Part shown: positions 27,203 through 63,771 of the stretch, piece after piece
How positions within the stretch are numbered: position 1 is the first letter of the stretch
Layout of the letters: the number at the start of each line of letters is the position of its first letter
DNA from: Aphrocallistes beatrix
Lineage: Eukaryota > Porifera > Hexactinellida > Sceptrulophora > Aphrocallistidae
NCBI GenBank assembly: GCA_963281255.1
Contig: OY725498.1
Span: 1,364,001-1,428,000 of the forward strand
Length of the DNA: 64,000 nt
Direction of reading: 5' to 3'
Translations under genes and position numbers: made by a program
The notes under the pieces: generated by a model
What the model was told of the DNA's origin: nothing
What the model saw: only the letters and a program-made list of their open reading frames with translations
Database searches by the model: none

Positions 27203-29530
27203 TTATGTATCCATGGTGTCGTCTGCAATTGGTTCGTTCTCCACACAGTCCATTACAGCACTGCCTGGAGATGGCTGATTTGCAAATGCGGGATTATAGG
27301 CAGGCGGTCTCACGTCTCTCGAAGAGGACATGTCATGATGACTTATCTGTGATTTCATAAAAGTACCTTTAGCAGTGGCTTCTAAACGGAAATTAATCGT
27401 GTTCAAACTTTGGTTTTGATTATCTGGCAACTGAGGCTTAACTTCATCGATCCATTCGCCACTGCCGTCAGCTGTTGGGAAGTTATTCTGTAGAATCTGG
27501 TTTGAGTTGTTATTATTCTGATAAAGAAAAGTGTGGTGCTGTAATGTAGTAGGAAAGTAAAGGAATTGAGACTGTAACTCACTCCGAAGCTTCATCAAGA
27601 GCTTCCCTAACTTGTTCTGTCCCATCCGATTTCCTCCATCTCCCCAAAAGGAATCATTGCTGGTGTGTTCATACAGTGTAGCATTGCACGTGTTAATCAA
27701 TAACTCTCCGAGCTCATGATTTTGTGTAAATTTCTCCTTCAGCACTGTGTACATCACATGCTCCCTCATTGCATCCCAGTCTGGTCTCATCCATCGAGTA
27801 ACTTCCTTTTTGCGACCAAAATCAAGTGCATCTCTAGGAGCACTCAGCTGAGACATGAATTTCGTGTAGGGAGTTCCAACGAACTTCTGTGACTGGAAGT
27901 AATGCTCTGAAGTAGGAAAATAGACTCCATCTATAGTCAGAGAATTACAAGGGAAAAAGTTTGTGAATTCATAGAAAGGTTCTTCTCTGTTATAAAAGTT
28001 TATCATTTCCAGCGAATGATTGTTGTACCATTTGGGACCTAAAATGAACTGAGTGCTTGTTAGTAGTTGAGAGAACTTGTCAAACTCGCTAGCGTAAAGT
28101 GTATAGTGAAGATTACAACAGCTAGATGATGAATGTGTCGTGTTTTCGCAAGATAAGTACTTACAGCAAGATCCACCAGCTATCTGCCTGTATTTATTGT
28201 GACACCATTCATTGAAAAGGTAGAAGCATTGAGGAGAACAGAATAGCTGATTATAAGGATTGATAAGACTGTTACAACACCAATAACAACCAGGGATTAC
28301 AATGTTCCAATTGGAAGGTGATTGTAATACTTGTGGGCGTATATGTATTTCTCCGGCGTACTGAATTAACCCTCTGGGAATCGGACCAATATCTGTTTGG
28401 AATATTAGGAATTCACTCAGAACTCTGCTGAGAAGAAATGGAATTTGAGGCTGCTGTAAGGAAGGAACGTTCGTACAAGATTCACTTTGAGGAATTAAAG
28501 AAGTTGCGCTTGATTTATTATACCAGGGAGGATCTTTACTCAGACCAGAAACTAGAGTGTTATAGATTGTCTTGTAGTCAGCTTCAAGCTTCTGCAAATG
28601 TTCCTCTGAACAAAATTCATTTTTATCGATGAACTGATCACACCCCGGATATAAACAAATAAGGTTTCCAGTCGCATGCTGGTACTTCCTACGACACCAT
28701 TCATGTAGTAATGAATAACATTTCTTGTCACACACGTACAAATACTTGCTATAATCCTTGGTTAACTGTTTCCCGCACCAATAACATCCCTCTATAGTCA
28801 CGCACCAGTTTCTGTACGTAGCGAATTGAGAGGAGAGGTGTGATTGACACTTACTATCTCGTGGTATGGGACCTACATCAGTACGGAATATCAACCCTTC
28901 ATACAGACGAGGAGAAAATATGAAAAGACTAGCTTCTGTTCCCTGCATCATCACATCGCTACATTCTGATTTCACTTGATCGCTAGAATAAGAAGTGCTG
29001 GTTCTTTTCTTCGAGAATTGAACAGAATTGAACTGAGGATCAATATCATACCATTTCGGTCCTATCCTGATAAGATTGAAATCAGTGGAAGGATCTAATA
29101 ATCCGCTTGAACCTTTCTGGAACGCCGAAGCATGTTCATCTGTACAGAAAGAATTCTTTTCAATGTGATCTTGATCACATCCAGGATATCTACAAATAAA
29201 TTCATTCCTTTTTAAGTCATTAACTTTGAAAACACACCACTCGTGTAGATACATGAGACATTTCGTGGAGCAGCATATTGTTTGATGAGAGACGTTATCT
29301 GTGCAACACCAGTAACAACCTTGAATAGATCGTCTCCAGTTAGGAGAACTGTAGAAGGTAGGAGCAGGTGTTTCGCCTGGTTTAAAACTGCGAGGAATAG
29401 GACCTACGTCTGTCATGTAGTAGAGGGAACTGATGAGTCTTCCTGAGAAAGGAATTTCCATCTCAAGTTTATCCCTTGACTGTGAGCCCCAATACTGCTC
29501 GAATCCTTTGAAATCGGAGCAGGATTGCAT
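27203..29530 (-). CDS. Three-module Cys/His-rich NADAR protein (array gene 1)
   Basis: Single exon, 775 residues, ATG at 29530. Three modules occupy about 31-161, 204-337 and 368-502. Each starts near a (T/S)D(V/I)GPIPR motif, contains GCYWC, and ends GPKWY or PPWY. In module 1 the candidate metal ligands are C72-x2-C75, C87-x3-C91, H96-x2-C99 (HEWC), C113-x4-C118 and C129-x3-H133; module 3 has N in place of the His of HEWC. Residues about 511-652 are a NADAR (YbiA/DUF1768) domain: FYEFTNF, PTSEHYFQSQKF, RPDW, EHTSNDSFWGDGG, LGKLLMKLR. The usual GGD is GGN here. NADAR enzymes hydrolyse N-glycosidic bonds, reported for riboflavin intermediates and ADP-ribosylated guanine. The tail (653-775) carries EWIDEVKPQL and INFRLEATAKG, shared with the coiled-coil gene upstream in coordinate order. 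Target and location are unknown; there is no signal peptide, so it is probably intracellular. Confidence 0.9.
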   Translation of the reverse strand: MQSCSDFKGFEQYWGSQSRDKLEMEIPFSGRLISSLYYMTDVGPIPRSFKPGETPAPTFYSSPNWRRSIQGCYWCCTDNVSHQTICCSTKCLMYLHEWCVFKVNDLKRNEFICRYPGCDQDHIEKNSFCTDEHASAFQKGSSGLLDPSTDFNLIRIGPKWYDIDPQFNSVQFSKKRTSTSYSSDQVKSECSDVMMQGTEASLFIFSPRLYEGLIFRTDVGPIPRDSKCQSHLSSQFATYRNWCVTIEGCYWCGKQLTKDYSKYLYVCDKKCYSLLHEWCRRKYQHATGNLICLYPGCDQFIDKNEFCSEEHLQKLEADYKTIYNTLVSGLSKDPPWYNKSSATSLIPQSESCTNVPSLQQPQIPFLLSRVLSEFLIFQTDIGPIPRGLIQYAGEIHIRPQVLQSPSNWNIVIPGCYWCCNSLINPYNQLFCSPQCFYLFNEWCHNKYRQIAGGSCCKYLSCENTTHSSSSCCNLHYTLYASEFDKFSQLLTSTQFILGPKWYNNHSLEMINFYNREEPFYEFTNFFPCNSLTIDGVYFPTSEHYFQSQKFVGTPYTKFMSQLSAPRDALDFGRKKEVTRWMRPDWDAMREHVMYTVLKEKFTQNHELGELLINTCNATLYEHTSNDSFWGDGGNRMGQNKLGKLLMKLRSELQSQFLYFPTTLQHHTFLYQNNNNSNQILQNNFPTADGSGEWIDEVKPQLPDNQNQSLNTINFRLEATAKGTFMKSQISHHDMSSSRDVRPPAYNPAFANQPSPGSAVMDCVENEPIADDTMDT

Positions 29531-29781
29531 TGGGTTGAGCGAATAAATTATGATGTAATAGTTATCAACTAATTCAAAGTCAAACTATGGTTAAATGTAT
29601 AAGACGATAAATGGTTCAATCATACTATCTTTACAAGTATTATTACTACAAGTGAAAGTGTATCATAAACTACAGATAGGAATGTACATACAAACATACG
29701 TAACTAATTACTTCAATCATTCAGTAATCAGAGCAATGTTTGAGTAAGGTCTTAACTAAGTTCTACCATGGCATAGCCATG

Positions 29782-29990
29782 GTTAATTGGGCATGCCTAA
29801 TTTCCGGGACGGGACGAGTCAAGATGCCTAATCTCCGGGACGGGACAGAAAAGGTACCTAATTTCCGGGACGGGACGGGTTAAGATGTCTAATTTCCGGG
29901 ATGGGACGGGTTAAGATACCTAATTTCCGGGACGGGATCCCGTCCCGTCCCGGAAATTAGGCATACCCGATTAATTGGGCCAGTATTTTC
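29782..29990. repeat. Foldback with five ~31-bp tandem units
   Basis: Five tandem copies of CCTAATTTCCGGGACGGGAC-type units start at about 29795, 29826, 29856, 29887 and 29918, then one inverted copy follows (CCCGTCCCGGAAATTAGGC). The outer flanks TTAATTGGGCATGCC and its inverse make terminal inverted repeats. It is non-coding and lies between array genes 1 and 2. Confidence 0.75.
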
Positions 29991-30462
29991 CGTCCACTAT
30001 GTCCAGGAGTTAGTACACGTGGTGGACATATGTTCAACAGTCGAGGACACGTGTGTTAGTCGATGTTCCCTAAATACCATAGGAGATGTTGGAGATGGAA
30101 TGTCATGAGTTGTCACATGCTAACCAAGTTAGCAACCAAATATCAGAATAACAATTTAGTAAAGTAGAAACAATAAAATACTAGTCTCACATACTCGTAG
30201 TACAAAGAAAATTTATTTATATCAAAATAATAACTGAGGTTTGAATAATTAAATAAGGTTTGAATAATTTCTGAAAAGATTCCCACCACCTTCAGCTATT
30301 GGCTGCTTATTGAATTCTGAAGCAGCGCTATCGGAGAAACTTGTGTGAAACTAGACTGAACTCAGGAGGTGCATCGTGTAAGACGTACAACAAGTAGGAA
30401 TATACAGAGTAATAAATTCACAATTTAATAAACTTCCTTCCGTAGTAGATTCTAAACGAGAA

Positions 30463-31797
30463 TCAATTTTCTGCTTTGATATTAGGCTTAGGATCGTCAA
30501 TCCATTCACCAATGACATTGGTTGCTGGAGGCTTGTTTAGTAAATTCTGATTTTCAGCTGTCAATTGAGGTTTAGGATCGTCAATCCATTCATCAATGGC
30601 ATTGGTTGCTGGAGGCTTGTTTAGTAAATTCTGATTTTCAGCTGTCAATTGAGGTTTAGGATCGTCAATCCATTCACCAATGACATTGGTTGCTGGAGGC
30701 TTGTTTAGTAAATTCTGATTTTCAGCTGTCAATTGAGGTTTAGGATCGTCAATCCATTCACCAATGACATTGGTTGCTAGAGGCTTGTTTAGTAAATTCT
30801 GATTTTCAGCTGTCAATTGAGGTTTAGGATCGTCAATCCATTCATCAATGACATTGGTTGCTGGAGGCTTGTTTAGTAAATTCTGATTTTCAGCTGTCAA
30901 TTGAGGTTTAGGATCGTCAATCCATTCATCAATGGCATTGGTTGCTGGAGGCTTGTTTAGTAAATTCTGATTTTCAGCTGTCAATTGAGGTTTAGGATCG
31001 TCAATCCATTCATCAATGGCATTGGTTGCTAGAGGCTTGTTTAGTAAATTATGATTTTCAGCTGTCAATTGAGACTTAGGATCGTCAATCCATTCATCAA
31101 TGACATTGGTTGCTGGAGGCTTGTTTAGTAAATTATGATTTTCAGCTTTGATCTGAGGCTTAGCATCGTCAATCCATTCGTCCCAATGAGATATATTCTG
31201 GCTAGAGTCTCGAGTTTGTGTGTTATGGATCGTCTTACGGTCAGTTACAAGCTCCCAATTATTACCTTGATTGATTGCGCAGGGAGTACTGGTTCTTTTC
31301 TTTGAGGATTTCAAGTACCATTTTGGTCCTATCTTAATTAGATCAAATGCAGTGGGATTATTCAATAATTCGTTCCAATCTTTTTGAAACGCCGAAAAAT
31401 GCTCCTTTGTACAGAAAGAACTATTTTCACTGCTATCCTGATTACATCCAGGATGTCTGCACATAAATTCATTCCTTTTTAAGTCATTAACTTTGAAAAC
31501 ACACCACTCGTGTAGATACATGAGACATTCCGTGGAGCAGCAGATTGCTTGATGAGAGACGTTATCTGTGCAACACCAGTAACAACCTTGAATAGATCGT
31601 CTCCAGTTAGGAGAGCTGTAGAATGAAGGAGCAGGTGTTGCACCTGGTTTGAACCCGCGAGGAATAGGACCTACGTCTGTCATGTAGTAGAGGGAACTGA
31701 GGAGTCTTCCTGAGAAAGGAATTTCCATCACAAGTTTCTCTCTTGACTGTGAGCCCCAATACTGCTCGAATACTTCGCAAGGTGAGTAGGATTTCAT
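30463..31797 (-). CDS. NADAR-less family member with 28-residue repeats (array gene 2)
   Basis: Single exon, 444 residues, ATG at 31797. Residues 1-161 are almost the same as module 1 of the gene at 27203-29530 (for example SSLYYMTDVGPIPR, GCYWCCTDNVSHQ, LHEWCVFKVNDLKRNE). A short stretch (DRKTIHNT) resembles the end of module 2 of that gene, so modules 2-3 and NADAR appear deleted. Residues 206-444 are eight full and one partial copies of a 28-residue repeat, DEWIDDPKPQLTAENQNLLN plus KPPATNVI. The repeat core EWIDDPKPQL is the tail motif of array gene 1. The stop follows directly after the last EWIDD repeat; the next bases, read in another frame, still encode IDSRLESTTEGS, the family tail. 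It therefore probably lost its original C-terminus by frameshift. No enzyme activity is expected. Confidence 0.85.
   Translation of the reverse strand: MKSYSPCEVFEQYWGSQSREKLVMEIPFSGRLLSSLYYMTDVGPIPRGFKPGATPAPSFYSSPNWRRSIQGCYWCCTDNVSHQAICCSTECLMYLHEWCVFKVNDLKRNEFMCRHPGCNQDSSENSSFCTKEHFSAFQKDWNELLNNPTAFDLIKIGPKWYLKSSKKRTSTPCAINQGNNWELVTDRKTIHNTQTRDSSQNISHWDEWIDDAKPQIKAENHNLLNKPPATNVIDEWIDDPKSQLTAENHNLLNKPLATNAIDEWIDDPKPQLTAENQNLLNKPPATNAIDEWIDDPKPQLTAENQNLLNKPPATNVIDEWIDDPKPQLTAENQNLLNKPLATNVIGEWIDDPKPQLTAENQNLLNKPPATNVIGEWIDDPKPQLTAENQNLLNKPPATNAIDEWIDDPKPQLTAENQNLLNKPPATNVIGEWIDDPKPNIKAEN
30466..31182 (-). repeat. 84-bp coding tandem repeat, ~8.5 copies
   Basis: The GGATCGTCAATCCATTCA block recurs every 84 bp (for example 30490 and 30574). 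Units differ by a few substitutions, mainly D/G before EWIDD, P/L in KPPATN or KPLATN, and V/A before the last Ile. The period is a multiple of three, so the frame is kept through the array. Confidence 0.95.
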
Positions 31798-32977: not shown

Positions 32978-35641
32978 TCAAACATAAAATTCCTTAGCTG
33001 GATCAGATTTATGATTTTGTGGAGTTGAAGTTGGGCTTCTCACAGGAATAATCGTTTTAACAACTGTTGGGTGAGGACTATTCCAAGATTGGGCACGAGT
33101 AGATTCTGTTTCCTTCAAATATCCACTATTTATAGTGATATTGACACCCTGGTGGGGTCTCATAATTGAGCCATGCGGCTTCGACGGAATATTTTGATGA
33201 GTAGGATCTGGAAGCTTTAATTCCATTGAAAATTGACCGCTGTGCCTCTTACTTGGAGTTGCACAACCTTTTGGATCTGCAGTAGAAGTAGGCTGTGAAG
33301 TCACAACTTCACTGGTTTCATACGATTCGTCAGGAGCTGAGGAACGATTCGTTCTTGAAACATTATGAGCATCTGAACTTTCATGAGTGGACAAAGAACG
33401 TGGAGTGATGATTTTGGCAATAGTTTGGGGTGCAGGTGATTTAGGTGGAGGAGTTTCTGGTACACTAGCTTTAAGGTGTTCTAACCTTGAAGGAAGGAAT
33501 GGACACTTGCTATACAAATCAAATCTTACCTGCTTCAAGAGTTTCCCGAGCACATTCTTCCCCCTCCTGTCCCCACCATCTCCCCAGAAGTTGTCATTCC
33601 GCGTATGTTCATAGAGATCAGCGTCTCCAGTCTGTATCAGAATGTGAGCTAGATCTTGATTCTGGTTGAATTTCTCCTCAAGAGCCTTCAGCATGACGCC
33701 TTCTTTCACCTTCTGCCAGTCAGGTCGAATCCATTTCAGAATTTCAGAGCGACGAGTGTAGTCGAAAGCTTCTCTGGGAGTTTTCAACCTACGTACAATC
33801 TCTACGTGGGGTGTGCCGATGAACTTTTGAGCTTGGAAGTAATGTTCAGTGGTAGACCAGTCACAGCCATGAATCTTCAACTTGTCACATGGATAGAAGT
33901 TTGTGAACTCGTAAAACGGATCTTCTCTGTTATAGAAGTCGATACTACGTACTGACTTATCCCAGTACCACTTCGGTCCCAGACAATATTCAGTGCTCTT
34001 GAGGAGGTAGAAGAACTTTGTACTATATTTATGTTCATATGAAGTTCTGTGATAAACTTTTGAACAATAATCACTCAAAAAAGTGATATAGTTACACGAT
34101 GGATATTTACAAAGTTTTTTATGATATTTATTATACTTGTACTTCTTATGACACCACTCATTGAATAAGAAGAAACATTTGTCGGAGCAAGTAATGGAAT
34201 GGACTTCAGGATCCCTGGTACAGCACCAGTAACACTTGGGGATGTCTGTGTCCCAGTTGCTTGGGGAGTTGTGTTTATTGAATGAGTGAAGGTGAGGGAA
34301 TTTTGACAGTAGACTTCTAGGTATAGGCCCGATGTCACTCTTCTCATACATCCACTCTGTAAGGGTAGGAGAAAAAATGTAGAAATTACAGAGTGATTCA
34401 ATTTTAGAGGGAACCGATGTAGGAGCACCTGTTACCTTAAAATTAGCTTCAGTTTTAAAGAGATCAGATGTAGAAACATCTGGAACTTTAGAAGTTTCAG
34501 TTTTAGATGGATCAAATCTAAGAGCACCTGTGGCTTTAGAAGGAGTTACAATTTTAGAGTGAACAGATGTAGGAACGTCTGAAGTTTTAGGATATTCCGT
34601 TTTAGAGGAATCAGAGGTGACATTAGTATTATTAGATGTTTCTGAGTTGTCATACCAATAAGGACCTTGAGCTACAAGTAGCGTGAACTCACTTAATGCT
34701 AGATTATATTTTTCATATTTGTCTCGTAGGAGTTTTAAATGAGCATCACTACATGTGGAAACATCAGGTCGAGACTTGTGTTTACATCCAGGTTGTTTGC
34801 AATAGTAATTTTTAGTATGTTTATGTACCTTCAATCTACACCACTCGTGGAATATCAGATAGCATCTTCCTGAACACAGATATTCATTGTCACTTGTACG
34901 TTGCTTACAAAGATAACAGCCTTCAATCTGTCTATTCCAGTTTGCATGTGTAGAGTATTGGGAACTAGAATCACCACTTAACCTGTAACTTCTCGGGATA
35001 GGACCTACGTCTGTGTAGAACAAGAGGGCAGTAACCAACTCGTCTGATAAACGCATTTTTGCTTTACCGAAGTCAGGTTGAACTGTGCTAGAACTTGTTT
35101 GTACCTGATTATGAGATGAATCTGACTTGTGAGTGATATTATCATACCATGAAGGTCCTAGGGATAATTGCTTCTTTAGTTTTTTTCCATCACGAACTGT
35201 TAAAAAATCGCGTATATAATTATCTCGGTGTATAGCAGAACAACACTCATCTTTACTTTGAGAAGAATAAACACTTTCACAACCTGGTAGTTTACAAAAA
35301 CGCCGTTGGTTAAGCATTCCTGCTTTCTCCACACACCACTCATGGAAATAGAAAATACAATCATTACCACAACAAATACCCTGAACATCTGTCGATTCAT
35401 TACCACACCAGTAACATCCGGTTATATTTTTCTCCTTATTACTATTCTCGTAGATTGGCACAGTTTTACCTTCTGAATCGATGCTGCGAGGAATGTAACC
35501 AATGTCTGTTCCGTAATTAAGAGTGGTAAGAAGAATCTCTGAGAAAGGAACTATCATGTAGGATTTTGCCTTCCCAAATCTTCTTTTCAAAATATTTTCC
35601 CATCGAGTTTTAAACGTAGCAGAGGAACCATACCCAGCCAT
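32978..35641 (-). CDS. Three-module Cys/His-rich NADAR protein (array gene 3)
   Basis: Single exon, 887 residues, ATG at 35641. Modules lie at about 34-166 (TDIGYIPR, GCYWCG, FHEWC), 198-330 (TDVGPIPR, GCYLC, FHEWC) and 422-559 (KSDIGPIPR, KCYWCC, FNEWCH), then NADAR at about 568-710 with FYEFTNF, STTEHYFQAQKF and NDNFWGDGGDRRG, all family landmarks intact. The linker before module 3 (about 345-415) contains two degenerate copies of a ~34-residue Ser/Thr/Lys repeat (KTSDVPTS / KVPDVSTS; SKATGA / FKVTGA). The tail of about 175 residues is Pro/Ser/Thr-rich and unlike that of genes 1 and 2. It is the most diverged member of the array. The palindrome at 35722-38862 begins only 80 bp upstream of its start, so the promoter must lie in or next to one palindrome arm. 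Confidence 0.9.
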   Translation of the reverse strand: MAGYGSSATFKTRWENILKRRFGKAKSYMIVPFSEILLTTLNYGTDIGYIPRSIDSEGKTVPIYENSNKEKNITGCYWCGNESTDVQGICCGNDCIFYFHEWCVEKAGMLNQRRFCKLPGCESVYSSQSKDECCSAIHRDNYIRDFLTVRDGKKLKKQLSLGPSWYDNITHKSDSSHNQVQTSSSTVQPDFGKAKMRLSDELVTALLFYTDVGPIPRSYRLSGDSSSQYSTHANWNRQIEGCYLCKQRTSDNEYLCSGRCYLIFHEWCRLKVHKHTKNYYCKQPGCKHKSRPDVSTCSDAHLKLLRDKYEKYNLALSEFTLLVAQGPYWYDNSETSNNTNVTSDSSKTEYPKTSDVPTSVHSKIVTPSKATGALRFDPSKTETSKVPDVSTSDLFKTEANFKVTGAPTSVPSKIESLCNFYIFSPTLTEWMYEKSDIGPIPRSLLSKFPHLHSFNKHNSPSNWDTDIPKCYWCCTRDPEVHSITCSDKCFFLFNEWCHKKYKYNKYHKKLCKYPSCNYITFLSDYCSKVYHRTSYEHKYSTKFFYLLKSTEYCLGPKWYWDKSVRSIDFYNREDPFYEFTNFYPCDKLKIHGCDWSTTEHYFQAQKFIGTPHVEIVRRLKTPREAFDYTRRSEILKWIRPDWQKVKEGVMLKALEEKFNQNQDLAHILIQTGDADLYEHTRNDNFWGDGGDRRGKNVLGKLLKQVRFDLYSKCPFLPSRLEHLKASVPETPPPKSPAPQTIAKIITPRSLSTHESSDAHNVSRTNRSSAPDESYETSEVVTSQPTSTADPKGCATPSKRHSGQFSMELKLPDPTHQNIPSKPHGSIMRPHQGVNITINSGYLKETESTRAQSWNSPHPTVVKTIIPVRSPTSTPQNHKSDPAKEFYV

Positions 35642-36260
35642 GTGTAGAGTATATAATTAACCTATCTAAATATATATATACGTTGTACGATGAGTAGCAA
35701 TAATATGCAGTGGTAGATATACACAGAGTGATTTATTGATAAAAATACTCGAAATAATTGCGCGCAAAAGTTATTACCATCAATATATTATATATACCTA
35801 AGTAAATTAATATTACTATATAAAAGCTTTCCAACGGTGGGAATTCTTGAAATATGACACCTAACGTCCGGACGCGTCCGGAACCCTTTGGACAAAAATG
35901 ACCGTCTTGAATTTTTTGTAACTCCTTGATTTTTCGCTTCTTTTGGGTATACTAAATGCATTCTAATCGAGATATATATGCATTGCTAACTCTAATTGTC
36001 TTAAATACGAATATATCGATAATGGAGTATACCCGGTGTGTCATTGTATTTTCTCATAAGATTGGAGTTCACTCGACTGTTTTTTTTGTTAATTGAATTT
36101 ATGCACTAGTTGTATGCTATCAATCGTGTTAAATATTAATTAAACCGTAGTATTTCATGGCATTCTTGAGTAAATTCGAATTGAAATAAGAGTTGTGGTA
36201 CAGTGTGAGTTGTTACAAAAGTGATTAACTTCATATCTTGTTTAAAATATCATCCATAAT

Positions 36261-36346
36261 AGTATACAAGTGCGCTTCGCTTGCTTGAGCTGCGGGGCTG
36301 GCGAACACTTTGTGTCCCCCAGAGGCGCACTTTGTGCGCCTGGGGT
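36261..36346 (+). repeat. GC-rich triple-hairpin repeat unit (palindrome left arm)
   Basis: Consecutive hairpins: CGCTTCGCTTG-type, GAACACTTTGTGTCC, then AGGCGCACTTTGTGCGCCT, a perfect 8-bp stem with a TTT loop at 36323-36341. The mirror copy is at about 38238-38323. In the third copy (36870-36888) the last hairpin is AGGCGCCCTTTGGGCGCCT, so paired bases have changed together. Confidence 0.7.
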
Positions 36347-37615
36347 CATATTGATTAATTATTAGGGAGATAGCATCTCTAGATACGTCTGTCCTACTGC
36401 TATAATCGATATCGCACAAAACATCACCAAATTTGTCAATTTTAAAAATTTAATGCGGAATGATGACGTCATGACAGAGTAATGAGTCATCATTTTTGGA
36501 TGATAGTTGTATTACTTGTGAGGTATATTAATATAAACATTCTATTAAAATTTCAGCTTTCTATCCCCTAAAATGGATGAGTTATGATAAAAAAATTGTA
36601 ATTTCTAGTTATTAAAAAGGTGACAATGATGTCATAATTCCATGATGAGTTGATATTTCCATCAGAGGTATGAACTTAGTGGATCCATAGCCAAAAGACT
36701 CCCACATGCCAAAATCAGCTTTCTGTGTCTGGAAATTTCTTCAATCAATTAATTACAGATACATATACTTGTATATATATGGTGTATTTACATTATTCGA
36801 GTTTTAATAGTAACAAGCGCGCTTCGCTTGCTTGCGCTGCGCGGCTGGCGAACACTTCGTGTCCGCATGAGGCGCCCTTTGGGCGCCTGAGGTCTCATTG
36901 GTTAATTATTTGGGAGATTCGCTTTTTTGCGCTCCGCGCGCGGCGAACACTTCGTGTCCGCATGATGCGCCCTTCGGTCGCCTGTGGTCACCATTGATTA
37001 ATCATAAGGGAGAAAACATCTCTAAATACGTCTGTCCTACTATTATAATCGATATCGCACGAAAAATCACCAAATTTGTCAATTTTTATAATTTTGACGC
37101 GTAATGATGACGTCATAACAAAGTGATGAGTCATCATTTTTTGATGAAAGTCGCATCATATGTGAGATATGTTAGTATACAGATTCTATTAAAATTTCAG
37201 CCTTCTATCTCCTATAATGGCTGAGTTATGCCCGAATAACTGTGTTGCTTAACTTTTAAAAATGTGACAATGACGTCATAATTCCATGATGAGTCGACAT
37301 TTTACTCTGAGCTCAGAACTTACTGGAGCCATAGCCAAAAGACTCGCACATGCCAAAAATCAGCCTTCTGCGCCCAGCAGTTTTTTCAATCAATTCGTTA
37401 CAGATATATATATATATACAATAATCGAGTTTTAATAGTAAGGATGTCACGATAAGCTATGTAACAAGTCAAGTGAATGATTACAAGGTATAATGTTTAG
37501 AAATAACAACTAGCTAAACGTTGTAATACATTATGTAGATTCCATTAGTGACTAAGTAAACCAGTCAGCTTGTTATGGTTGACTGTGAATACTACCTATT
37601 CTACTACAGTAAAGA

Positions 37616-37808
37616 CAGTCGACTCCGCTTAATAGGGTCACATCGGTCAGAAGACATTTTGACATTTTAACAATTAAGCGGAAAACCCTATACCAAAAAT
37701 ATTCTGCATTAGCTTCTATGCGTGAGAGCTATTTCGGTCCTGCCACAAGTGGCCCGATTAAGCGGTTGACCCGATTAAACAGTGGCTCCTATTAAGCGGA
37801 GTCGACTG
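37616..37808. mobile_element. pogo/Tigger-like MITE inside the palindrome spacer
   Basis: Ends CAGTCGACTCCGCTTAATAG and TTAAGCGGAGTCGACTG bound 193 bp, with the same interior as the copies at 24243 and 53468. It lies at the inner edge of the right palindrome arm, a possible seed for the rearrangement. Confidence 0.8.
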
Positions 37809-39324
37809 TATATATAGATATATATCTGTAACGAATTGGTTGAATAAACTGCCGGGCACAGAAAGCTGATTTTGGCATGTGGGAGTCTTTTGGCTATGGA
37901 TCCACTAAGTTCATACCTCTGATGGAAATGTCAACTCATCATGGAATTATGGCATCATTGTCACCTTTTTAATAATTAGAAATTTTAGTTTTTCAATCAT
38001 AACTCATCCATTTTAGGGGATAGAAAGCTGAAATTTTAATAGAATGTTTATATTAATATACCTCACAAGTAATACAACTATCATCCAAAAATGATGACTC
38101 ATTACTCTGTCATGACGTCATCATTCCGCATTAAATTTTTAAAATTGACAAATTTGGTGATGTTTTGTGCGATATCGATTATAGCAGTTGGACAGACGTA
38201 TCTAGAGATGCTATCTCCCTAATAATTAATCAATATGACCCCAGGCGCACAAAGTGCGCCTCTGGGGGACACAAAGTGTTCGCCAGCCCCGCAGCTCAAG
38301 CAAGCGAAGCGCACTTGTATACTATTATGGATGATATTTTAAACAAGATATGAAGTTAATCACTTTTGTAACAACTCACACTGTACCACAACTCTTATTT
38401 CAATTCGAATTTACTCAAGAATGCCATGAAATACTACGGTTTAATTAATATTTAACACGATTGATAGCATACAACTAGTGCATAAATTCAATTAACAAAA
38501 AAAACAGTCGAGTGAACTCCAATCTTATGAGAAAATACAATGACACACCGGGTATACTCCATTATCGATATATTCGTATTTAAGACAATTAGAGTTAGCA
38601 ATGCATATATATCTCGATTAGAATGCATTTAGTATACCCAAAAGAAGCGAAAAATCAAGGAGTTACAAAAAATTCAAGACGGTCATTTTTGTCCAAAGGG
38701 TTCCGGACGCGTCCGGACGTTAGGTGTCATATTTCAAGAATTCCCACCGTTGGAAAGCTTTTATATAGTAATATTAATTTACTTAGGTATATATAATATA
38801 TTGATGGTAATAACTTTTGCGCGCAATTATTTCGAGTATTTTTATCAATAAATCATTCTGTGAGATAGTTATTTAATAGTAGTTATCTCGATGCAGGGGC
38901 GTAGGAAGGGGGATCTAACATTGGAGATGCCAAATTCGTGACATATTTATAGATAACTAGTTATATTAGAATACGACCCCTTTAGGCTCGGTCGCTTCGC
39001 GAAATACCCTTGTATAAATATTTTCATTTATCTCAGGTGTATGGTCTTTTAAATTAATAAACTCGTTAGAAATAAACACAATAAATCGTGCTTTTAGTGT
39101 GCATCCTACACTACACTAATATATTGGCACTATGATCCAAAATAAGCATACTGTTAAAATGGTTTTGATATCCAGACAGCCATAATTCCGCTCTTAGCAG
39201 CAAGAATTAAAAGATACGTAATGGCTTAATTTTTAAGAAGGTACATCTACAGTATGTCTCGAAAGTATTTACATATTGTCATTTTTTCTTAATATGAGCT
39301 CTAATTACTCTATATATGTCAAAA

Positions 39325-39356
39325 CATAGCCTACTGCATATATACAGTAGGCTATG
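39325..39356. repeat. 12-bp stem hairpin
   Basis: CATAGCCTACTG and CAGTAGGCTATG are exact inverse copies around CATATATA. It is the only structured element I see in the AT-rich 38863-40014 stretch, apart from a diverged repeat arm at about 39631-39690. Confidence 0.6.
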
Positions 39357-40014
39357 GCCAAAATAAGATGAGTAATTGCGATTTATCTTTAAACCTGATG
39401 TTCCTATTAATTGAAATAAAGTAAACGCTAATACGCTCACTTGACTAAAGTCTAAAACCACCACTTTCAGTTGCTTACACCGGACCTGTATATCGTCGAT
39501 TCCACTCTTGATTCAATCGGACCCTCCCACGCTAACTTATCTGCGATTAAAAATGTAAACGCGTAATCATCACCTTACTTAATATTAATTAAAGATTCGA
39601 GAATGATGAGAGGTAATAAATTAGCGAAAAAATCCCCCATAGACAAGATGGGAGTGTTTCTACATTTTTGGGTTGATAGTCTGTAAGGGACTTTTTATGA
39701 GCTGTCAATGACACTGAGTATGCACAAATCAATTCTAACAAGTTACAGTATCAGTGATGTGTAGCAACAACTGCTATCGCTTCAAATAACCAACCTAGAT
39801 ATCATAAATAGGATTCAACATGATTATGAACTAACTAAACTATCAGTATTCGGGGAACATTAAAAATACAGTCACAGTTTTACAACAATAGTAGGATGTA
39901 TAAAGCATATTCAAGTATCTACAGGCTATAGAATAGATTGCCAAAGAGTCTAGAAATATAGAAAATACATAAAAATAAAATATTAATCAGATATAGTACG
40001 TTAGCCAATTATAA

Positions 40015-53871: not shown

Positions 53872-55950
53872 TTAATTGGGAGAGGCTCCAGGAGGACAAG
53901 TGGAGGTGTTCTGTATTCCCATTGTTGAGAAAGATCTGCCATCAACTGGATTCAATCCTTGAGACGGTAAAGTATTCCGATTGGAAAATACTTCGTGTGT
54001 GAGATGATTCAATGTTGAAGGTAAATATGGAATGTGTCTCTGTAAATCAAACCTGACCTGCATCAACAACTGTCCCAACTTGTTCTGACCTCTCCTGTCT
54101 CCTCCATCTCCCCAGAACTTATCGTTATGTGTGTGTTCAAACAGCTTTCTATCTCCTGTACGGATAAGCAAGTCACCAAGATCTGGATTTTGAGCAAACT
54201 TCTCCTCCAACGCTTTTAACATTACAGAAACTTTCACTTTCTCCCAGTCGATACGGATCCATTTCTGTACGTTTGGAATGCGCGGGAAATCAAAAGCATC
54301 TCTTGGAGTCTGCATTGCACGAATACATTCGATGTATGGAGTTCCGACAAACTTCTGAGATTGGAAATAGTGCTCTGTAGTTGGCCATGAAACATTGTCA
54401 AAATAGAGGAGTGTGCAGGGGGAAAAGTTTGTGAATTCATAGAAGGGTTCATCTTTTTGATAAAAGTCGATGTGATCATCATTTGGATGATACCACTTGG
54501 GTCCTAGTGCAAAGTTAGTACTCTTCAACTCTCCACCAAATTTAGATGTGAATCTATTCTGGTATCTGTCGAAGTGTTCTCTCTTGCAGCAATCCCTCTC
54601 AGAGGTAGCACTAGAGTCACAGAGTGGAAACTTACACAGTCTCTTGTTCGTATTACTGACAGATTTCTCATACTTTCTGTGACACCATTCATTGAGAAGA
54701 AAGAAACATTTGTCAGAACACGCGACACCATGGATACTCTGGTTATTCTCACAGCACCAGCAACAACCTGGAATGATGGCATTGGAGTTTCCAGGAGTCG
54801 TCTTGATGCAAGAATCCGGGAGTGTCTCAAACAGTTTCCTAGGAATAGGACCGACATCAGACTTCTCATAAAGAAATCTCGTCAAAATCTCACAAAAGAC
54901 AAGTTCACCTTTCTGAAATTGAATTGGCTTAGTTTGTGTAGATGATTTTTTCTTTGAAATTGAGGCTGCTGATTGTGGAGTTTGTAAAGCAGAGTTGCAC
55001 TGATACCAAGTTGGTCCCTTATCAACTTGGTCTGGGTTTGGATTTTTAGTTCCTTTTTCATGTTCTTTATTGCAATACACAATCCCACTTTTTGCTAGGT
55101 TACCACAACCAGGAAATTTGCAAAATGTGACTCTACTCAAAACCTTCCGTCTACACCACTCATTAAATGCGAGGTAGCATTTCTTCGAACAGAGATATTC
55201 AGCAGTATCAGATACCTTCTTACCACACATGTAACACCCTGATATCTCTCTATTCCAGTTAGGAGAACTGGAGAACTCAGATGTGAGGTGTTCTTCCTTT
55301 TTGAAGCTTCTAGGAATGGGCCCCACATCTGTGACAAATATTAATCGCTCTTTCAATTCAGATGCAATATCCATCTTACATTCATTAGTATCAGGTTTGT
55401 TCTGTTGTAGCGGCTTTGAAGATTTTTTTTTACTTTTACTTTTAGTTTGTTTCACTTGGTCATTGTTTAACTGTTTATCATACCATTTTGGGCCCTTTTT
55501 TAGTTCAGAATCTAATTTATCCTTGGTCATCCCACAATCCTCAATAAGCGGATTGTAATTTTCTTTATGTTCTTTGCTGCAACAGATGAAGGACTCTTTA
55601 GGAGACTGATCACATCCTGGTAATCTACAGAACTTCTCTCCGGAATCGTTCTCAACTTTCTCAATACACCATTCATGAAACGTAAATAAGCATCTTATTG
55701 AACAACAAATTCCTTGGTATTCGACTTTTTTTGTACCACACCAGTAACAGCCAACGATTTTCTTTTTCCAATTGGGATTATTCATAAATGCAGGGGCAGG
55801 CAATTGATTCACATTACCTCCTCGAGGAATTATTCCAACATCAGTTTCGTAACAAAGAGCGGATAATAATCCTTCAGAGAAGTTGATTTTGAATTCAGAT
55901 TTTGCTACATTCTTTTCCCATTGAGGGAGAAATTGGGATTTTGAAGCCAT
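53872..55950 (-). CDS. Three-module Cys/His-rich NADAR protein (array gene 6)
   Basis: Single exon, 692 residues, ATG at 55950. Modules: about 24-157 (TDVGIIPR, GCYWCG, FHEWC, ending GPKWY), 196-316 (TDVGPIPR, GCYMCG, FNEWC, ending GPTWY) and 347-487 (KSDVGPIPR, GCCWCC, LNEWCH, ending GPKWY). Module 3 has GCCWCC where its close relatives have GCYWCC. A Lys/Ser-rich linker (SKSKKKSSK) separates modules 1 and 2. NADAR lies at about 494-640 with FYEFTNF, PTTEHYFQSQKF and NDKFWGDGGDRRG, intact. The tail is short, about 50 residues. Modules 2-3 and NADAR are nearly identical to those of array gene 8, and module 3 to that of array gene 7. This gene looks like the donor type for both mosaics. Confidence 0.9.
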   Translation of the reverse strand: MASKSQFLPQWEKNVAKSEFKINFSEGLLSALCYETDVGIIPRGGNVNQLPAPAFMNNPNWKKKIVGCYWCGTKKVEYQGICCSIRCLFTFHEWCIEKVENDSGEKFCRLPGCDQSPKESFICCSKEHKENYNPLIEDCGMTKDKLDSELKKGPKWYDKQLNNDQVKQTKSKSKKKSSKPLQQNKPDTNECKMDIASELKERLIFVTDVGPIPRSFKKEEHLTSEFSSSPNWNREISGCYMCGKKVSDTAEYLCSKKCYLAFNEWCRRKVLSRVTFCKFPGCGNLAKSGIVYCNKEHEKGTKNPNPDQVDKGPTWYQCNSALQTPQSAASISKKKSSTQTKPIQFQKGELVFCEILTRFLYEKSDVGPIPRKLFETLPDSCIKTTPGNSNAIIPGCCWCCENNQSIHGVACSDKCFFLLNEWCHRKYEKSVSNTNKRLCKFPLCDSSATSERDCCKREHFDRYQNRFTSKFGGELKSTNFALGPKWYHPNDDHIDFYQKDEPFYEFTNFSPCTLLYFDNVSWPTTEHYFQSQKFVGTPYIECIRAMQTPRDAFDFPRIPNVQKWIRIDWEKVKVSVMLKALEEKFAQNPDLGDLLIRTGDRKLFEHTHNDKFWGDGGDRRGQNKLGQLLMQVRFDLQRHIPYLPSTLNHLTHEVFSNRNTLPSQGLNPVDGRSFSTMGIQNTSTCPPGASPN

Positions 55951-56998: not shown

Positions 56999-58999
56999 TT
57001 ATTTGAAAGAGATCCCATGAGTAAAATGCTCCAACTTTGTGGGTAAATATGGAATGCGTCTCTGCAAACCCAACCTCACTTGCACTAACAACTGTCCTAA
57101 CATGTTCTGACCTCTCCCGTCTCCTCCATCTCCCCAGAACTTATCGCTATGTGTGTGTTCAAACAGCTTTCTATCTCCTGTACGGATAAGCAAGTCGCCA
57201 AGATCTGGATTTTGACTGAATTTCTCTCTCAAAGCCTTTAGCATAACAGAGACTTGCACTTTCTCCCAGTCGTTACGTACCCATTTCCTTACATTGGGAG
57301 TGCGCGCGTAATTTAAAACGTCGTTTGGTGTATGCTTTCTACGTACAGTCTCGACGTGTGGGGTCCCAGCAAACTTCTGAGATTGAAAATAGTGCTCTGT
57401 AGTTGGCCATGAAACATTGTCAATATAGAGGTGTGTGCATTGGAAAAAGTTTGTGAATTCATAGAAGGGTTCATCTTTTTGATAAAAGTCGATGTGATCA
57501 TCATTTGGACGATACCATTTGGGTCCTAATGCAAAGTTAGTACTCTTCAACTCTCCACCAAATTTAGATGTGAATCTATTCTGGTATCTGTCGAAGTGTT
57601 CTCTCTTGCAGCAATCCCTCTCAGAGGTAGCACTAGAGTCACAGAGTGGAAACTTACACAGTCTCTTGTTCGTATTACTGACAGATTTCTCATACTTTCT
57701 GTGACACCATTCATTGAGAAGAAAGAAACATTTGTCAGAACACGCGACACCATGGATACTCTGGTTATTCTCACAGCACCAGTAACAACCTGGAATGATG
57801 GCATTGGAGTTTCCAGGAGTCGTCTTGATGCAAGAATCCGGGAGTGTCTCAAACAGTTTCCTAGGAATAGGACCGACATCACACTTCTCATAAAGGAATC
57901 TCGTCAGGATCTCACAAAAGACAAGTTCACCTTTCTGAGAATTAATTGAATTTTCCACTTCCCAGGATTTAGAACTAATATTTTGCTGCTCTGCTTTAGT
58001 TTGAGCTAAACTGAATGAACGTTTCCCATCCAAATTAGTAGAAGATTTATTGTAGCCAAATTCCATCGGCTGATTTTCACTCGTAGGGGAGGATGTGATA
58101 TTAAATGGAGACACATAGCCATTCGGGAGTTCATGCTTTGCTTCACCACGAACTGTGCTCAAGGTGCATGTTCCCTGAATAGGATTATAACCAGTTGTTT
58201 GAATTGAATTCCTATTAGATTCTCGTTCTGGTGCGACAGTTGAAGACACAGCGTAAGAATCATATTGTCTATACTCACTGTTAAATTCTGTATTAGGAGA
58301 GTGAGTAACTGTGTCAGGAATCCTACTTGATTCAGGAATGTAAGAAGTCTTCATAGGAGTGATAATATTCGATACCTGATAGGAAGCATAGAATCGCTTT
58401 GACTGATCTGAAGTGTATTCAGTGTCTGTTGGCTCTCGAGTAGGGTTCAAGGTTTGTGTAAGGAGAGGTTTGTTTGAAGACTGTTGTTTGTTGAGATGAG
58501 ATTCATCCTCGTAGTAGTTAGTGGTAGGTTGATCGATTTTTGAATTATACCAACTTGGGCCATTCCGTAGAACTTTTTTATAGAGAGATTCTTGATCCAC
58601 CCATTTAGGAAATGCCTTTCCAAATTCATCTTTATGCGAGGTGTCACAATAATAATTATTCGTAGATACCTTGCCACATCCAGGAAATCGACAAAACTTC
58701 CTCTGTGTTAGGACCTTTACTCTCTCAATGCACCAATCATGAAAATAGAAGAGACACTCTTTCGAACAACAAATTCCAAACCATTCTTTCTGAATATCAT
58801 CAGAACACCAGTAACATCCTTGAATAGAGAAATTCCAATTCGTGGAATACATATGTTTAGGTTTATTCATACTGACATCAAGGTCAATTTCTCGTGGAAT
58901 TGGGCCGACATCAGTTTCATAGCAGAGTGTTTGGAGGAGTCCTTCTGAAAACTCGATTTTCTTCTCATTTCGCCGAAAAAATGTCAAAATTCCAGCCAT
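56999..58999 (-). CDS. Mosaic two-module NADAR protein (array gene 7)
   Basis: Single exon, 666 residues, ATG at 58999. Module 1 (about 14-151; TDVGPIPR, GCYWCS, FHDWC, LRNGPSWY) is nearly the same as module 1 of the giant gene at 40015-49110. A disordered linker (about 165-350) is built from the two tail segments of array gene 5 in reversed order. There is no module 2. Module 3 (about 356-496; KCDVGPIPR, GCYWCC, LNEWCH) is almost identical to that of array gene 6. NADAR (about 502-645) has FYEFTNF, PTTEHYFQSQKF and SDKFWGDGGDGRG; a short patch, HVETVRRKHTPNDVLNYART, differs sharply from gene 6 and resembles gene 3 (HVEIVRRLKTPREAFDYTRR). It ends soon after NADAR. All active-site landmarks remain, so it is likely functional if expressed. 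Confidence 0.9.
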   Translation of the reverse strand: MAGILTFFRRNEKKIEFSEGLLQTLCYETDVGPIPREIDLDVSMNKPKHMYSTNWNFSIQGCYWCSDDIQKEWFGICCSKECLFYFHDWCIERVKVLTQRKFCRFPGCGKVSTNNYYCDTSHKDEFGKAFPKWVDQESLYKKVLRNGPSWYNSKIDQPTTNYYEDESHLNKQQSSNKPLLTQTLNPTREPTDTEYTSDQSKRFYASYQVSNIITPMKTSYIPESSRIPDTVTHSPNTEFNSEYRQYDSYAVSSTVAPERESNRNSIQTTGYNPIQGTCTLSTVRGEAKHELPNGYVSPFNITSSPTSENQPMEFGYNKSSTNLDGKRSFSLAQTKAEQQNISSKSWEVENSINSQKGELVFCEILTRFLYEKCDVGPIPRKLFETLPDSCIKTTPGNSNAIIPGCYWCCENNQSIHGVACSDKCFFLLNEWCHRKYEKSVSNTNKRLCKFPLCDSSATSERDCCKREHFDRYQNRFTSKFGGELKSTNFALGPKWYRPNDDHIDFYQKDEPFYEFTNFFQCTHLYIDNVSWPTTEHYFQSQKFAGTPHVETVRRKHTPNDVLNYARTPNVRKWVRNDWEKVQVSVMLKALREKFSQNPDLGDLLIRTGDRKLFEHTHSDKFWGDGGDGRGQNMLGQLLVQVRLGLQRRIPYLPTKLEHFTHGISFK

Positions 59000-60960: not shown

Positions 60961-61662
60961 TTTCTGCAGAGAGATGCCCCTATGGCAAGGACGGTGTACC
61001 ATATCCGTCCATATGTATGTATGTATCTCCGTACGCTGCGAAATTTGAGTTTTCAAAGATTTAGTAATCCCGATGTATTACAATATTCATATCTCACGTG
61101 CCAAGTCAGCTGTACTATCGGTCTACCGACATACATTTTTTTAACATGAATAATGCCAACTTGAGCCATGATAAAAGCGGGTCGCAGCGTTGAAGTTTGC
61201 GGGACATGGCGGGACGCAATAGTAAAACTTCTACATACTTGCTGAATCAAAAAAAGTGGATAGAATAAAACTTCATATAAATGCGGGACATTCATGAAAA
61301 TTAGCTCAACAGAAGAATGCAAAAATCGGGACGTCCCGTCAAAAACGGGCAGTTAGCATGTATTGAATAGACTCCCTATTAATAGAGACCTCCTAGAGTG
61401 ATTGTAATGTCATCACATCCTATGAGGAGAGGACCTACTTTAGTGTACGTAATTAAATGACACAAAATTTAACCCGGACCATTTTTTTCGTGACAGGTAG
61501 TCCAAATTGGGGACAGAACTTAAATCGTAAAAAGAAGAATAACATAATTAGAACAATAAAATAAGAATCAAAATCTAAAATTGGTCAATTTAGGGTATCA
61601 GTTCACAATTGAGACCTGAGCTATAATCTCAATTAATAGAGAGGGGAAGACTCTTCCGCTAA

Positions 61663-63771
61663 TTAATCGATATAAGAAGTTCCAGGAGTAAAAGTGGAGA
61701 TGTTCTGTATTCCTATTGCTGGATAAGATCTCCCATCAAGTGGATTCAATCCTTGAGACGGTAAATTATTCCAACTGGAAGATACTTTATGTGTGAGATG
61801 ATTCAATGTTGGAGGTAAATATGGATTGCGTCTTTGTAAATCAAACCTGACCTGCATCAATAACTGTCCTAACTTGTTCTGACCTCTCCCGTCTCCTCCA
61901 TCTCCCCAGAACTTATCGTTATGTGTGTGTTCAAACAGCTTTCTATCTCCTGTACGGATAAGCAAGTCACCAAGATCTGGATTTAGAGTAAACTTCTCCT
62001 CCAACGCTTTTAACATTACAGAAACTTTCACTTTCTCCCAGTCGATACGGATCCATTTCTGTACGTTTGGAATGCGCGGGAAATCAAAAGCATCTCTTGG
62101 AGTCTGCCTTGAACGAATAAATTTGGTGTATGGAGTTCCGACAAACTTTTGAGATTGAAAATAGTGCTCTGTAGTTGGCCATGAAACATTGTCAATAAAG
62201 AGGTGTGTGCATTGGAAAAAGTTTGTGAATTCATAGAAGGGTGCATCTACGTCATAAAAGTTGATGTGATCATCATTTGGACGATACCACTTGGGTCCTA
62301 ATGCAAAGTTAGTACTCTTCAACTCTCCACCAAATTTAGATGTGAATCTATTCTGGTATCTGTCCAAGTGTTCTCTCTTGCAGAAATCCCTCTCAGAGGT
62401 AACACTAGAGTCACAGAGTGGAAACTTACACAGTCTCTTGTTCGTATTACTAACAGATTTCTCATACTTTCTGTGACACCATTCATTGAGAAGAAAGAAA
62501 CATTTGTCAGAACACGCGACACCATGGATACTCTGGTTATTCTCACAGCACCAGTAACAACCTGGAATGATGGCATTGGAGTTTCCAGGAGTCGTCTTGA
62601 TGCAAGAATCCGGAAGTGTCTCAAACAGTTTCCTAGGAATAGGACCGACATCAGACTTCTCATAAAGGAATCTCGTCAGGATCTCACAAAAGACAAGTTC
62701 ACCTTTCTGAAACTGAATTGGTTTAGTTTGTGTAGATGGATTTTTCTTTGAAACTGAGACTGCGAATTGAGGAGTTTCAAAAGTAGAGTGGCACTGGTAC
62801 CAAATTGGTCCTTCATCAACTTGGTCTGAGTTCAAATTTGGAAATTTTTTAATTTCTTTTTCATACTCTTTACCACAATACACAGTCCCACTTTTTGCTA
62901 GGTTCCCACAACCAGGAAATTTACAAAATGTGACTCTACTCAAAAGCTTTTGCCTACACCACTCATTAAACGCGAAGTAGCATTTCTTCGAACAGAGATA
63001 TTCAGCAGTATCAGATACTTTCTTACCACACATGTAACACCCTGATATCTCTCTATTCCAGTTAGGAGAACTGGAGAACTCAGATATGAGGTGTTCTTCC
63101 CTTTTGAAGCTTCTAGGAATGGGCCCCACATCTGTGTAAAATATCAATCCATTTTTCAATTCAGATGCAACATCCATCTTACATTCGTTAGTAGACGGTT
63201 TGTTCTGTTGTTTTAGCTTGGGAGCCCTGTTATACATGTCAATGCTGATTGCCTTGTCATACCAATTAGGACCATTTCGAACAACAGTTTTCAATAATTT
63301 CTGATAATCAGAAAACTGTGAAAATGCTGCATCGAATTTACCCTCATCACTTCCACTGCAATATAGACTATCTTGATTATGAAGGATATTATCACAGCCT
63401 AGTAACCTGCAGAATCTTTTGTTGGTAAAGAACTCGACTCTCTCAATACACCAGTCATGGAAATAGACGAGACATTCCCTAGAACAACAGATTCCTAGAA
63501 ATTCAGCTGTCTTTACCTTTTCAACACACCAGTAACAACCATGAATAGTATATTTCCAATTTTTTGAATCTGCATATTGAGGTGTAGAAGCATTTTTATG
63601 GAAATTTCTACGAGGAATGCTGCCTACATCAGTTTCATAATAGAGCGATTTTAGGAGTTCTTCTGAAAACTGTAAATTAATTCCCACTGCACCTATAGCT
63701 TGGCCGAATGCGTCTTTACAATAGTATCCCCAGTAATTGAGAAAGGGACTCCACTCAGAGTTGGATGTCAT
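61663..63771 (-). CDS. Mosaic three-module Cys/His-rich NADAR protein (array gene 8 position, last of the array)
   Basis: Single exon, 702 residues; the ATG at 63771 is chosen because MTSNSEWSPFLNYWG aligns with MASHSEWGPFLNYWG of the gene at 49852-52389 (the frame is open eight codons further without an ATG). Module 1 (about 34-171; TDVGSIPR, GCYWCV, FHDWC) is a near copy of that gene. Around residue 185 (about 63216) the sequence switches to the array gene 6 type: NECKMDVASEL, module 2 (200-325), module 3 (356-496) and NADAR (505-648), all close to 53872-55950. In NADAR the patch YTKFIRSRQ differs from gene 6 and resembles array gene 1, and INFYDVDAPFYEF replaces IDFYQKDEPFYEF. Active-site landmarks (NDKFWGDGGDGRG) are intact. 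The ~130 bp after the stop match the gene 6 3' flank. Confidence 0.9.
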   Translation of the reverse strand: MTSNSEWSPFLNYWGYYCKDAFGQAIGAVGINLQFSEELLKSLYYETDVGSIPRRNFHKNASTPQYADSKNWKYTIHGCYWCVEKVKTAEFLGICCSRECLVYFHDWCIERVEFFTNKRFCRLLGCDNILHNQDSLYCSGSDEGKFDAAFSQFSDYQKLLKTVVRNGPNWYDKAISIDMYNRAPKLKQQNKPSTNECKMDVASELKNGLIFYTDVGPIPRSFKREEHLISEFSSSPNWNREISGCYMCGKKVSDTAEYLCSKKCYFAFNEWCRQKLLSRVTFCKFPGCGNLAKSGTVYCGKEYEKEIKKFPNLNSDQVDEGPIWYQCHSTFETPQFAVSVSKKNPSTQTKPIQFQKGELVFCEILTRFLYEKSDVGPIPRKLFETLPDSCIKTTPGNSNAIIPGCYWCCENNQSIHGVACSDKCFFLLNEWCHRKYEKSVSNTNKRLCKFPLCDSSVTSERDFCKREHLDRYQNRFTSKFGGELKSTNFALGPKWYRPNDDHINFYDVDAPFYEFTNFFQCTHLFIDNVSWPTTEHYFQSQKFVGTPYTKFIRSRQTPRDAFDFPRIPNVQKWIRIDWEKVKVSVMLKALEEKFTLNPDLGDLLIRTGDRKLFEHTHNDKFWGDGGDGRGQNKLGQLLMQVRFDLQRRNPYLPPTLNHLTHKVSSSWNNLPSQGLNPLDGRSYPAIGIQNISTFTPGTSYID

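Follow-up and report, generated by a model that had tools for sequence, protein, structure and literature searches.

A tandem array of glass sponge genes joining a candidate zinc-binding Cys/His module to YbiA-type NADAR domains

What could be the role, in a glass sponge, of a row of intronless genes joining up to three copies of a Cys/His-rich module to a NADAR domain? This question is raised by a stretch of 64,000 nucleotides of Aphrocallistes beatrix (C12:1364001-1428000, hereafter the window) within a 100.5-Mb genome of 28 contigs, to which the C-numbers refer. The list of open reading frames (ORFs) holds eight minus-strand single-ORF genes arranged head to tail between window positions 27203 and 63771, and a frame check shows that all eight run uninterrupted from an ATG to a single stop. 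Seven of them end in a NADAR domain, the exception being g30, and the modules, numbered M1 to M3, are three in six genes, two in g57 and one in g30. The initial annotation had rightly seen a head-to-tail minus-strand array, with one gene devoid of module 2 (g57, 56999-58999) and another devoid of modules 2-3 and of NADAR (g30, 30463-31797), but it had counted seven genes instead of eight. What is new at the locus is the organisation of the genes and the domain that accompanies an already known enzyme domain. The reading that we favour as a whole, tentatively and at somewhat less than an even chance, is that these genes encode zinc-module-guided ADP-ribosyl-guanine hydrolases which, together with dead partners, would take part in an ADP-ribose-based conflict (immune) network in these sponges.

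The array is larger than the window. Using M1 of g54 as query, a genome search gave 56 module matches, located on C12, where the array continues past the window to about position 1458590, on C8 (about 911645-935954), which holds a second array, and on C7 (one match). Beyond the right window edge, 17 open frames carry modules or pieces of them; three are at least 800 amino acids (aa) long (839, 1011 and 1137 aa) and the remainder measure 60-468 aa, while C8 holds nine module-bearing frames, one of 840 aa. The short frames right of the window and on C8 are read as broken copies, introns being possible instead. The animal gene array, the NADAR domain and a module without a curated family, as put forward in the initial annotation, thus stand, with an extent larger than described there; it contained neither the array beyond the window nor, as presented below, the genes with a dead NADAR, the front ends they share with active genes, the mosaics and the ankyrin fusion.

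As had been recognised earlier, the C-terminal domain is a NADAR. The Pfam model PF08719 is matched above its cut-off (35.1 bits) by seven of the eight window genes, with 82.6-120.6 bits and E-values of 5.1e-23 to 1e-34, the former from a g40 query cut within the domain, and the domain has the NADAR fold. Six catalytic or ligand positions (E, K, W, E, D, W) are kept in 7/7 window NADARs. All seven also bear the signature of the YbiA subfamily, that is an E and a K in the first half, a last-strand glutamate (not Asp or His), then a D and a W, following the residue criteria found in parts of PMC11543638 and PMC11125620. Furthermore, YbiA is the best PDB sequence match. The fold and the six positions are the same as in YbiA and the P. 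nicotianae NADAR (2b3w, 8bau); unlike in these proteins, the domain follows here up to three copies of the new module, precedes a repeat tail in some genes, occurs in a many-copy animal array and has a dead sister class. Because the active site is conserved and the removal of ADP-ribose from guanine is described for other NADARs in parts of PMC11543638 and PMC11125620, we propose that the window proteins carry out this reaction. This proposed chemistry would be shared with the DarT1-NADAR toxin-antitoxin systems (DarTG1), from which the window proteins differ by being eukaryotic and multi-domain and by their YbiA-type glutamate, where DarT1-linked NADARs have an aspartate according to the relevant part of PMC11543638. 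NADAR domains are reported for porifera as a group in a part of PMC11125620, which also states that it is unclear what NADARs do physiologically in eukaryotes, including animals.

Genome-wide, 37 NADAR matches were counted at exon level. Many of them are pieces in two further groups, apparently split into exons and with no module in the stretches covered, at C13:429450-502929 and C18:1177957-1181781. The NADAR proteins with the top Pfam scores are encoded at C14:4013634-4016300 and C20:1151336-1152790, both with a PCRPQK-like stretch near the C-terminus, as judged by eye.

The module itself was delineated with a profile built from 63 copies found by regular expression and applied to the window, the genome and database proteins. 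Counting full modules only, 109 copies were retrieved, and removal of nine exact duplicates left 100 distinct modules, 34 from this genome and 66 from database proteins. It is about 143 residues long, occurs in one to three copies per NADAR gene and has as its core TD-G-I-PR, C-x2-C, C-x3-C, EW(C), C-x4-C, C-x3-H and P-W-Y. Each cysteine of C-x2-C and C-x3-C is present in 100/100 modules, as are the W of EWC (its C in 91) and the final WY; in the second quartet, the residues of C-x4-C are found in 98 and 96 modules and those of C-x3-H in 98 and 93. The motifs that had been named from the window (C-x2-C, C-x3-C, EWC, C-x4-C, C-x3-H, WY) are therefore conserved across the 100 copies. The claim of HEWC or NEWC holds in part, as the residue preceding EWC is H in 51 and N in 33 modules, but also Y (11), S (4) or T (1); since H is found in only 51/100, this histidine is not strict. 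In some M3 copies, the second site reads by eye C-x2-C in place of C-x4-C.

Folded alone, the M1 module of g54 (55480-55920, minus strand, 147 aa) gave a structure prediction with a mean predicted local distance difference test (pLDDT) score of 88.8 and a predicted template modelling (pTM) score of 0.85, in which the C-x3-C and C-x3-H pairs stand at helix starts and one long helix follows C-x3-C. On the basis of conservation, two ligand sets are proposed for this module, C58 C61 C73 C77 and C98 C103 C114 H118, and the ligand spacing together with the helix positions would be consistent with two treble-clef-like zinc sites per module. Its lack of a named domain, already put forward earlier, agrees with all the libraries searched. 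Indeed, no Pfam model scores above its cut-off on the module, per protein or per module, NCBIfam gives nothing significant over it on two full-length proteins, PDB sequences yield no significant match, and no fold match to the predicted module was found in PDB and viral fold libraries, the latter being weak evidence for so small a domain. Weak Pfam matches were obtained with the extended-PHD model zf-HC5HC2H (6/35 modules at E up to 1, the best being 0.0069) and with C1_2 (3/35 modules, best E 0.0041); others, such as those on the repeat tail of g30, were set aside as noise. Among PDB sequences, the first half of the module weakly resembles the PHD of BRPF1 (E 0.056) and of Pygopus (E 0.13), and its second half, also weakly, the ATF2-type C2H2 finger of CRE-BP1 (E 0.62). 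Beyond the weakness of these matches and the lack of a listed PDB fold match, which still allows for a PHD-type finger, the module differs from a C4HC3 PHD or ePHD by its HxxC histidine, present in 51/100, by the long helix after C-x3-C and by a second site of the form C-x4-C...C-x3-H. With a confident predicted fold and no match found, it could found a new domain family.

Seven database proteins, P0016-P0022, reveal a second class in which the NADAR catalytic loop (E, D, W) is lost through the same clean deletion in 7/7 aligned, and this loop is absent as well from the second domain of C12:1429402-1431918. In these dead-class domains, the first catalytic E is replaced by Y, F or Q. As the deletion is identical in all seven, it is probably one old event; and as dead domains are 39-72% identical between contigs (six compared), they seem to be kept. 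Over the last module and NADAR, two dead-class copies on C12 differ at a proportion of 0.021 of nonsynonymous (pN) and 0.06 of synonymous (pS) sites, and a third C12 copy contains stops. P0022 comes from a transcriptome (EukProt), which means that in some species a relative of the dead class is transcribed.

Six contig sets allowed active genes to be set against dead ones, database proteins being assigned to contigs, and contigs to species, by inference. In 4/6 sets, the dead gene shares M1-M2 with at least one active gene (76-95% identity), but not the back end (30-41%). In O. minuta, identities between active and dead genes are 94% for M1, 95% for M2, 34% for the last module and 37% for NADAR, and in contig 205903, which has four active genes, they are 76-80%, 86-91%, 34-40% and 38-41%, respectively. 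For P0008 and P0019, which lie on different contigs and are assumed to come from the same species, the values are 89, 86, 35 and 33%. In the present genome, g50 and P0016 are 93% identical in M1 and 92% in M2, compared with 32% in the last module and 30% in NADAR, while g62 shares with P0016 only M1 (85%). Furthermore, P0016 has, placed before its dead unit, a third module that is 87% like M3 of g50, and for this reason it has the appearance of a front of the g50 type, its active NADAR broken off, to which a dead unit has been joined. From these data, a paired system can be envisaged in which the hydrolase and a non-cutting reader or decoy share a zinc-module arm through recombination or gene conversion within a species, the arm being a new zinc-binding domain also moved onto an ankyrin protein. 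We hold this specific proposal with low confidence; if it is true, the hydrolase and the dead sister of one cluster would address the same ADP-ribosylated nucleic-acid target.

The history of the modules points to old types and ongoing exchange. On a quick tree of 108 modules (10 of 118 dropped; partial modules left out), the position labels change 11 times against a mean of 50.9 when shuffled, none of 200 shuffles being as low, and some of the 11 changes are due to genes devoid of some modules, in which labels shift. On this ground, M1, M2 and M3 are old positional types, with modules mostly sorted by position. Two window genes are mosaics. The first 550 bases or so of g62 are 94% identical to g50 and its remainder 93% to g54; in g57, the 5' end is 87% identical to g40, the middle 75% to part of the g50 tail and the sequence from base 1052 onward 91% to g54. 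These breakpoints lie at or between module borders. Between g54 and g57, M3 is far closer (synonymous divergence, dS, 0.06) than NADAR (dS 0.41), which suggests one further exchange between them.

Repeats found both in spacers of the array and in the C8 stretch, in either orientation and chiefly at 35642-40014, could assist exchange. Spacer ORFs at 36680-37101 resemble, by eye, an ORF beside Gypsy-like pieces on C8. The shared repeats and the tandem arrangement of intronless genes would also suit a remnant or captured part of a mobile element, all the more as NADAR is present in Gypsy and Tx1 elements according to a part of PMC12477816 and as Gypsy-like protease and reverse-transcriptase pieces, identified by eye with no family scan, lie inside the C8 array (C8:928899-930340). 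Against this explanation, no reverse transcriptase, integrase or transposase was noticed by eye, with no family scan, in spacer ORFs of at least 75 aa right of window position 24000; the positional module types are common to several contigs, selection is purifying, and the repeats in common may have been inserted or have come along with duplicated blocks. We therefore regard a mobile origin as very unlikely.

For NADAR, nonsynonymous divergence (dN) could be compared with dS in 5 of 21 pairs, dS being saturated in 16. The dN/dS ratios are 0.11 and 0.13 in two old pairs and 0.28-0.75 in three recent ones; they range over 0.13-0.78 in seven module pairs, and reach 0.25, 0.35 and 1.25 in tails and 1.19 in one linker, on few sites. 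This pattern points to purifying selection with looser tails. Since full module copies score about 80-180 bits with the module profile and dN is below dS in all five computable NADAR pairs, chance is excluded.

The mechanism that we favour can then be drawn as follows. The proteins would be intracellular hydrolases in which up to three zinc-binding modules, forming a recognition arm, precede a YbiA-type NADAR; the modules would hold a nucleic-acid or nucleoprotein target, and NADAR would cut the N-glycosidic bond between ADP-ribose and guanine. The dead sister class, endowed with the same kind of arm, may attach to these targets and leave them uncut, serving as a reader, a competitor or a regulator, and the array would turn over as genes are duplicated, decay and recombine between modules. 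From the recognition arm and the dead partner we read targeting and competition, and from turnover and mosaics conflict; because such turnover is expected of a family that follows changing targets, a role in an ADP-ribose conflict network is the likeliest one. Several observations weigh against this proposal. There is no clear sign of positive selection, most pairs being below 1 and the values near 1.2, those of one tail and one linker, coming from few sites. No DarT writer (PF14487) was matched in a six-frame, exon-level search of the genome, another difference from DarTG1, and two proteins scanned with the NCBIfam NADAR anti-phage model score 66 and 61 against a cut-off of 240. The net charge of single modules is zero or negative in some cases. 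Nor is the shared arm general: four of the six three-module window genes (g27, g33, g40 and g54) are only 35-50% identical to P0016 over M1-M2, and in two of the six sets (contigs 216403 and 1226633) the arms are 36-46% alike. Finally, the same two proteins pass the cut-off (73.7) of TIGR02464, the riboflavin-intermediate N-glycosidase model, with 109 and 110.3 bits, and the O. minuta copy is annotated PYRR-like.

These last points, with YbiA as best PDB sequence match, would rather suit metabolite repair, the proteins being N-glycosidases of the YbiA/PYRR kind with riboflavin intermediates or free ADP-ribose derivatives as substrates. GTP cyclohydrolase II (PF00925) and lumazine synthase (PF00885) have however no match in the genome in a six-frame, exon-level search in which controls were matched, and a soluble metabolite would hardly call for three modules or a dead class. 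Symbionts could supply riboflavin intermediates, and free ADP-ribose signals are possible substrates, but we consider metabolite repair improbable, and it comes last of the three rivals that remain, after repair of the sponge's own ADP-ribosylation and RNA processing.

The first of these rivals states that the proteins reverse nucleic-acid marks made by the sponge's own PARPs, with modules giving specificity and no role in conflict. Counted at exon level, 28 PARP-catalytic and 9 macrodomain matches stand in the genome beside the 37 of NADAR, so that NADAR may be a main eraser, and the mostly purifying selection fits this view. Turnover, short or broken copies, mosaics and repeat-swollen tails would nevertheless be unusual for a housekeeping eraser, which moreover has no need for a dead sister class with the same arm, and we judge such a role rather unlikely, if still worth weighing. 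At C11:4342188-4361849, a stretch of 20 kb holds three frames of some 1030 aa, each with macro and PARP domains; the first has the order macro-WWE-PARP, like vertebrate PARP14-type proteins.

The second rival is a role in RNA processing, for which the proteins would, like nematode SNA-3, be brought to pre-mRNA or spliced-leader RNA. In the part of PMC9303266 concerned, SNA-3 is described as an essential animal protein with three NADARs, the first without key residues, needed for SL1 trans-splicing; a trans-spliced leader motif is reported for the glass sponge A. vastus in a part of PMC10282587, which nonetheless predicts leaders in only 4% of long reads. While one NADAR devoid of key residues recalls the dead class, the window genes have a single NADAR each plus modules, instead of three NADARs, and "zinc finger" has no occurrence in PMC9303266. 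A changing array is also unlike an essential small nuclear ribonucleoprotein factor, and no relative labelled nematode or SNA-3 was listed, although most entries bear no organism label. An RNA-processing role is thus doubtful, slightly less so than metabolite repair.

Returning to the ADP-ribosyl-guanine hydrolases, the locus documents an animal lineage in which NADARs have multiplied and been joined to a domain that none of the libraries searched contains, and in which a dead sister class is apparently kept, often with an arm matching that of active genes. The comparison of active and dead members offers a way to test the role of NADARs in animals, and these concrete proteins, with their predicted substrates, allow testing whether nucleic-acid ADP-ribosylation belongs to animal immunity. 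Protein searches, which covered proteins of about 330 aa and above, listed 30 distinct database proteins (P0001-P0026 and P0028-P0031), of which at least P0001, P0002, P0013, P0016 and P0031 come from this genome itself or are nearly identical to its genes, and P0026 matches through its NADAR part. The relatives with an organism label belong to the glass sponge O. minuta (P0009, P0018). As to the fungal resemblance suggested in the initial annotation, none of the proteins listed is labelled fungal, most entries having no organism label; a single-module scan of bacterial, archaeal and viral contigs, sensitive to close relatives only, gave no relative. The family may be confined to glass sponges. 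No description of this module, architecture, dead class or shared arms was found in the open-access literature searched, and the genome papers on O. minuta and A. vastus do not contain "NADAR" in their main texts.

The module also occurs outside the NADAR context. A 2116-aa frame at C7:1244640-1250987 has in common with the array genes one module, at its C-terminus, but differs by many ankyrin repeats and by the absence of a NADAR match. Its last 177 residues have P0031 (2102 aa, 100% identical) as only database match, and its module groups with the last module of the dead class with a Shimodaira-Hasegawa-like approximate likelihood ratio test (SH-aLRT) support of 97, the ankyrin branch being long.

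Within the window, all genes of the array being on the minus strand, g27 (27203-29530, 775 aa) has modules at aa 18-161, 195-337 and 357-502, a NADAR at aa 519-649 (Pfam match 27572-27997) and a tail with a PPAY motif. The PPxY motif was considered as a family feature and dropped, because in tails it is found only in g27 (P0013 being the same gene), P0024 and P0029, and the remaining PPxY strings sit in or beside modules. The 444-aa product of g30 has its single module at aa 18-161, downstream of which lies a repeat array with an 84-bp unit (30484-31179). Modules of g33 (32978-35641, 887 aa) are at aa 23-166, 188-330 and 413-559, with NADAR at aa 576-706 (33515-33937). The g40 gene (40015-49110) has modules at aa 20-162, 206-350 and 353-489 and NADAR at aa 506-636 (47191-47616); its product reaches 3031 aa because the tail (40266-47118) holds, in open frame, about 69 copies of a 99-bp (33-aa) repeat with 98% match. 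A 1310-aa plus-strand ORF at 43264-47196, antisense to this tail, is probably only a shadow of the repeat. In g50 (49852-52389, 845 aa), modules are at aa 26-172, 181-324 and 364-504 and NADAR at aa 521-651 (50425-50850). For g54 (53872-55950, 692 aa), whose structure was predicted, the corresponding positions are aa 14-157, 185-316 and 343-487, then aa 503-633 (54043-54465). The three-way mosaic g57 (666 aa) has an M1-type module at aa 7-151, an M3-type one at aa 351-496, no M2, and NADAR at aa 512-642 (57065-57487), and the two-way mosaic g62 (61663-63771, 702 aa) has modules at aa 26-171, 191-325 and 352-496 and NADAR at aa 512-642 (61837-62259).

Adjoining the array and loosely associated with it, a minus-strand ORF of 252 aa (24714-25472) encodes a coiled coil that resembles the C-terminal part of the module protein P0025 (29% over 136 aa), in which this relative is fused to two modules, and a tail that resembles that of g27 (37.5% over 64 aa); it is possibly an extra part of the family. 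Further to the left, the genes at 2199-4566, 12526-14424, 15581-17236, 20961-21434 and 22508-23461 look of ordinary animal type, and we take them to be an asparagine synthetase, an SLC6-type transporter, a TAF6-like protein, an HMG-CoA synthase and a PAQR-like receptor.

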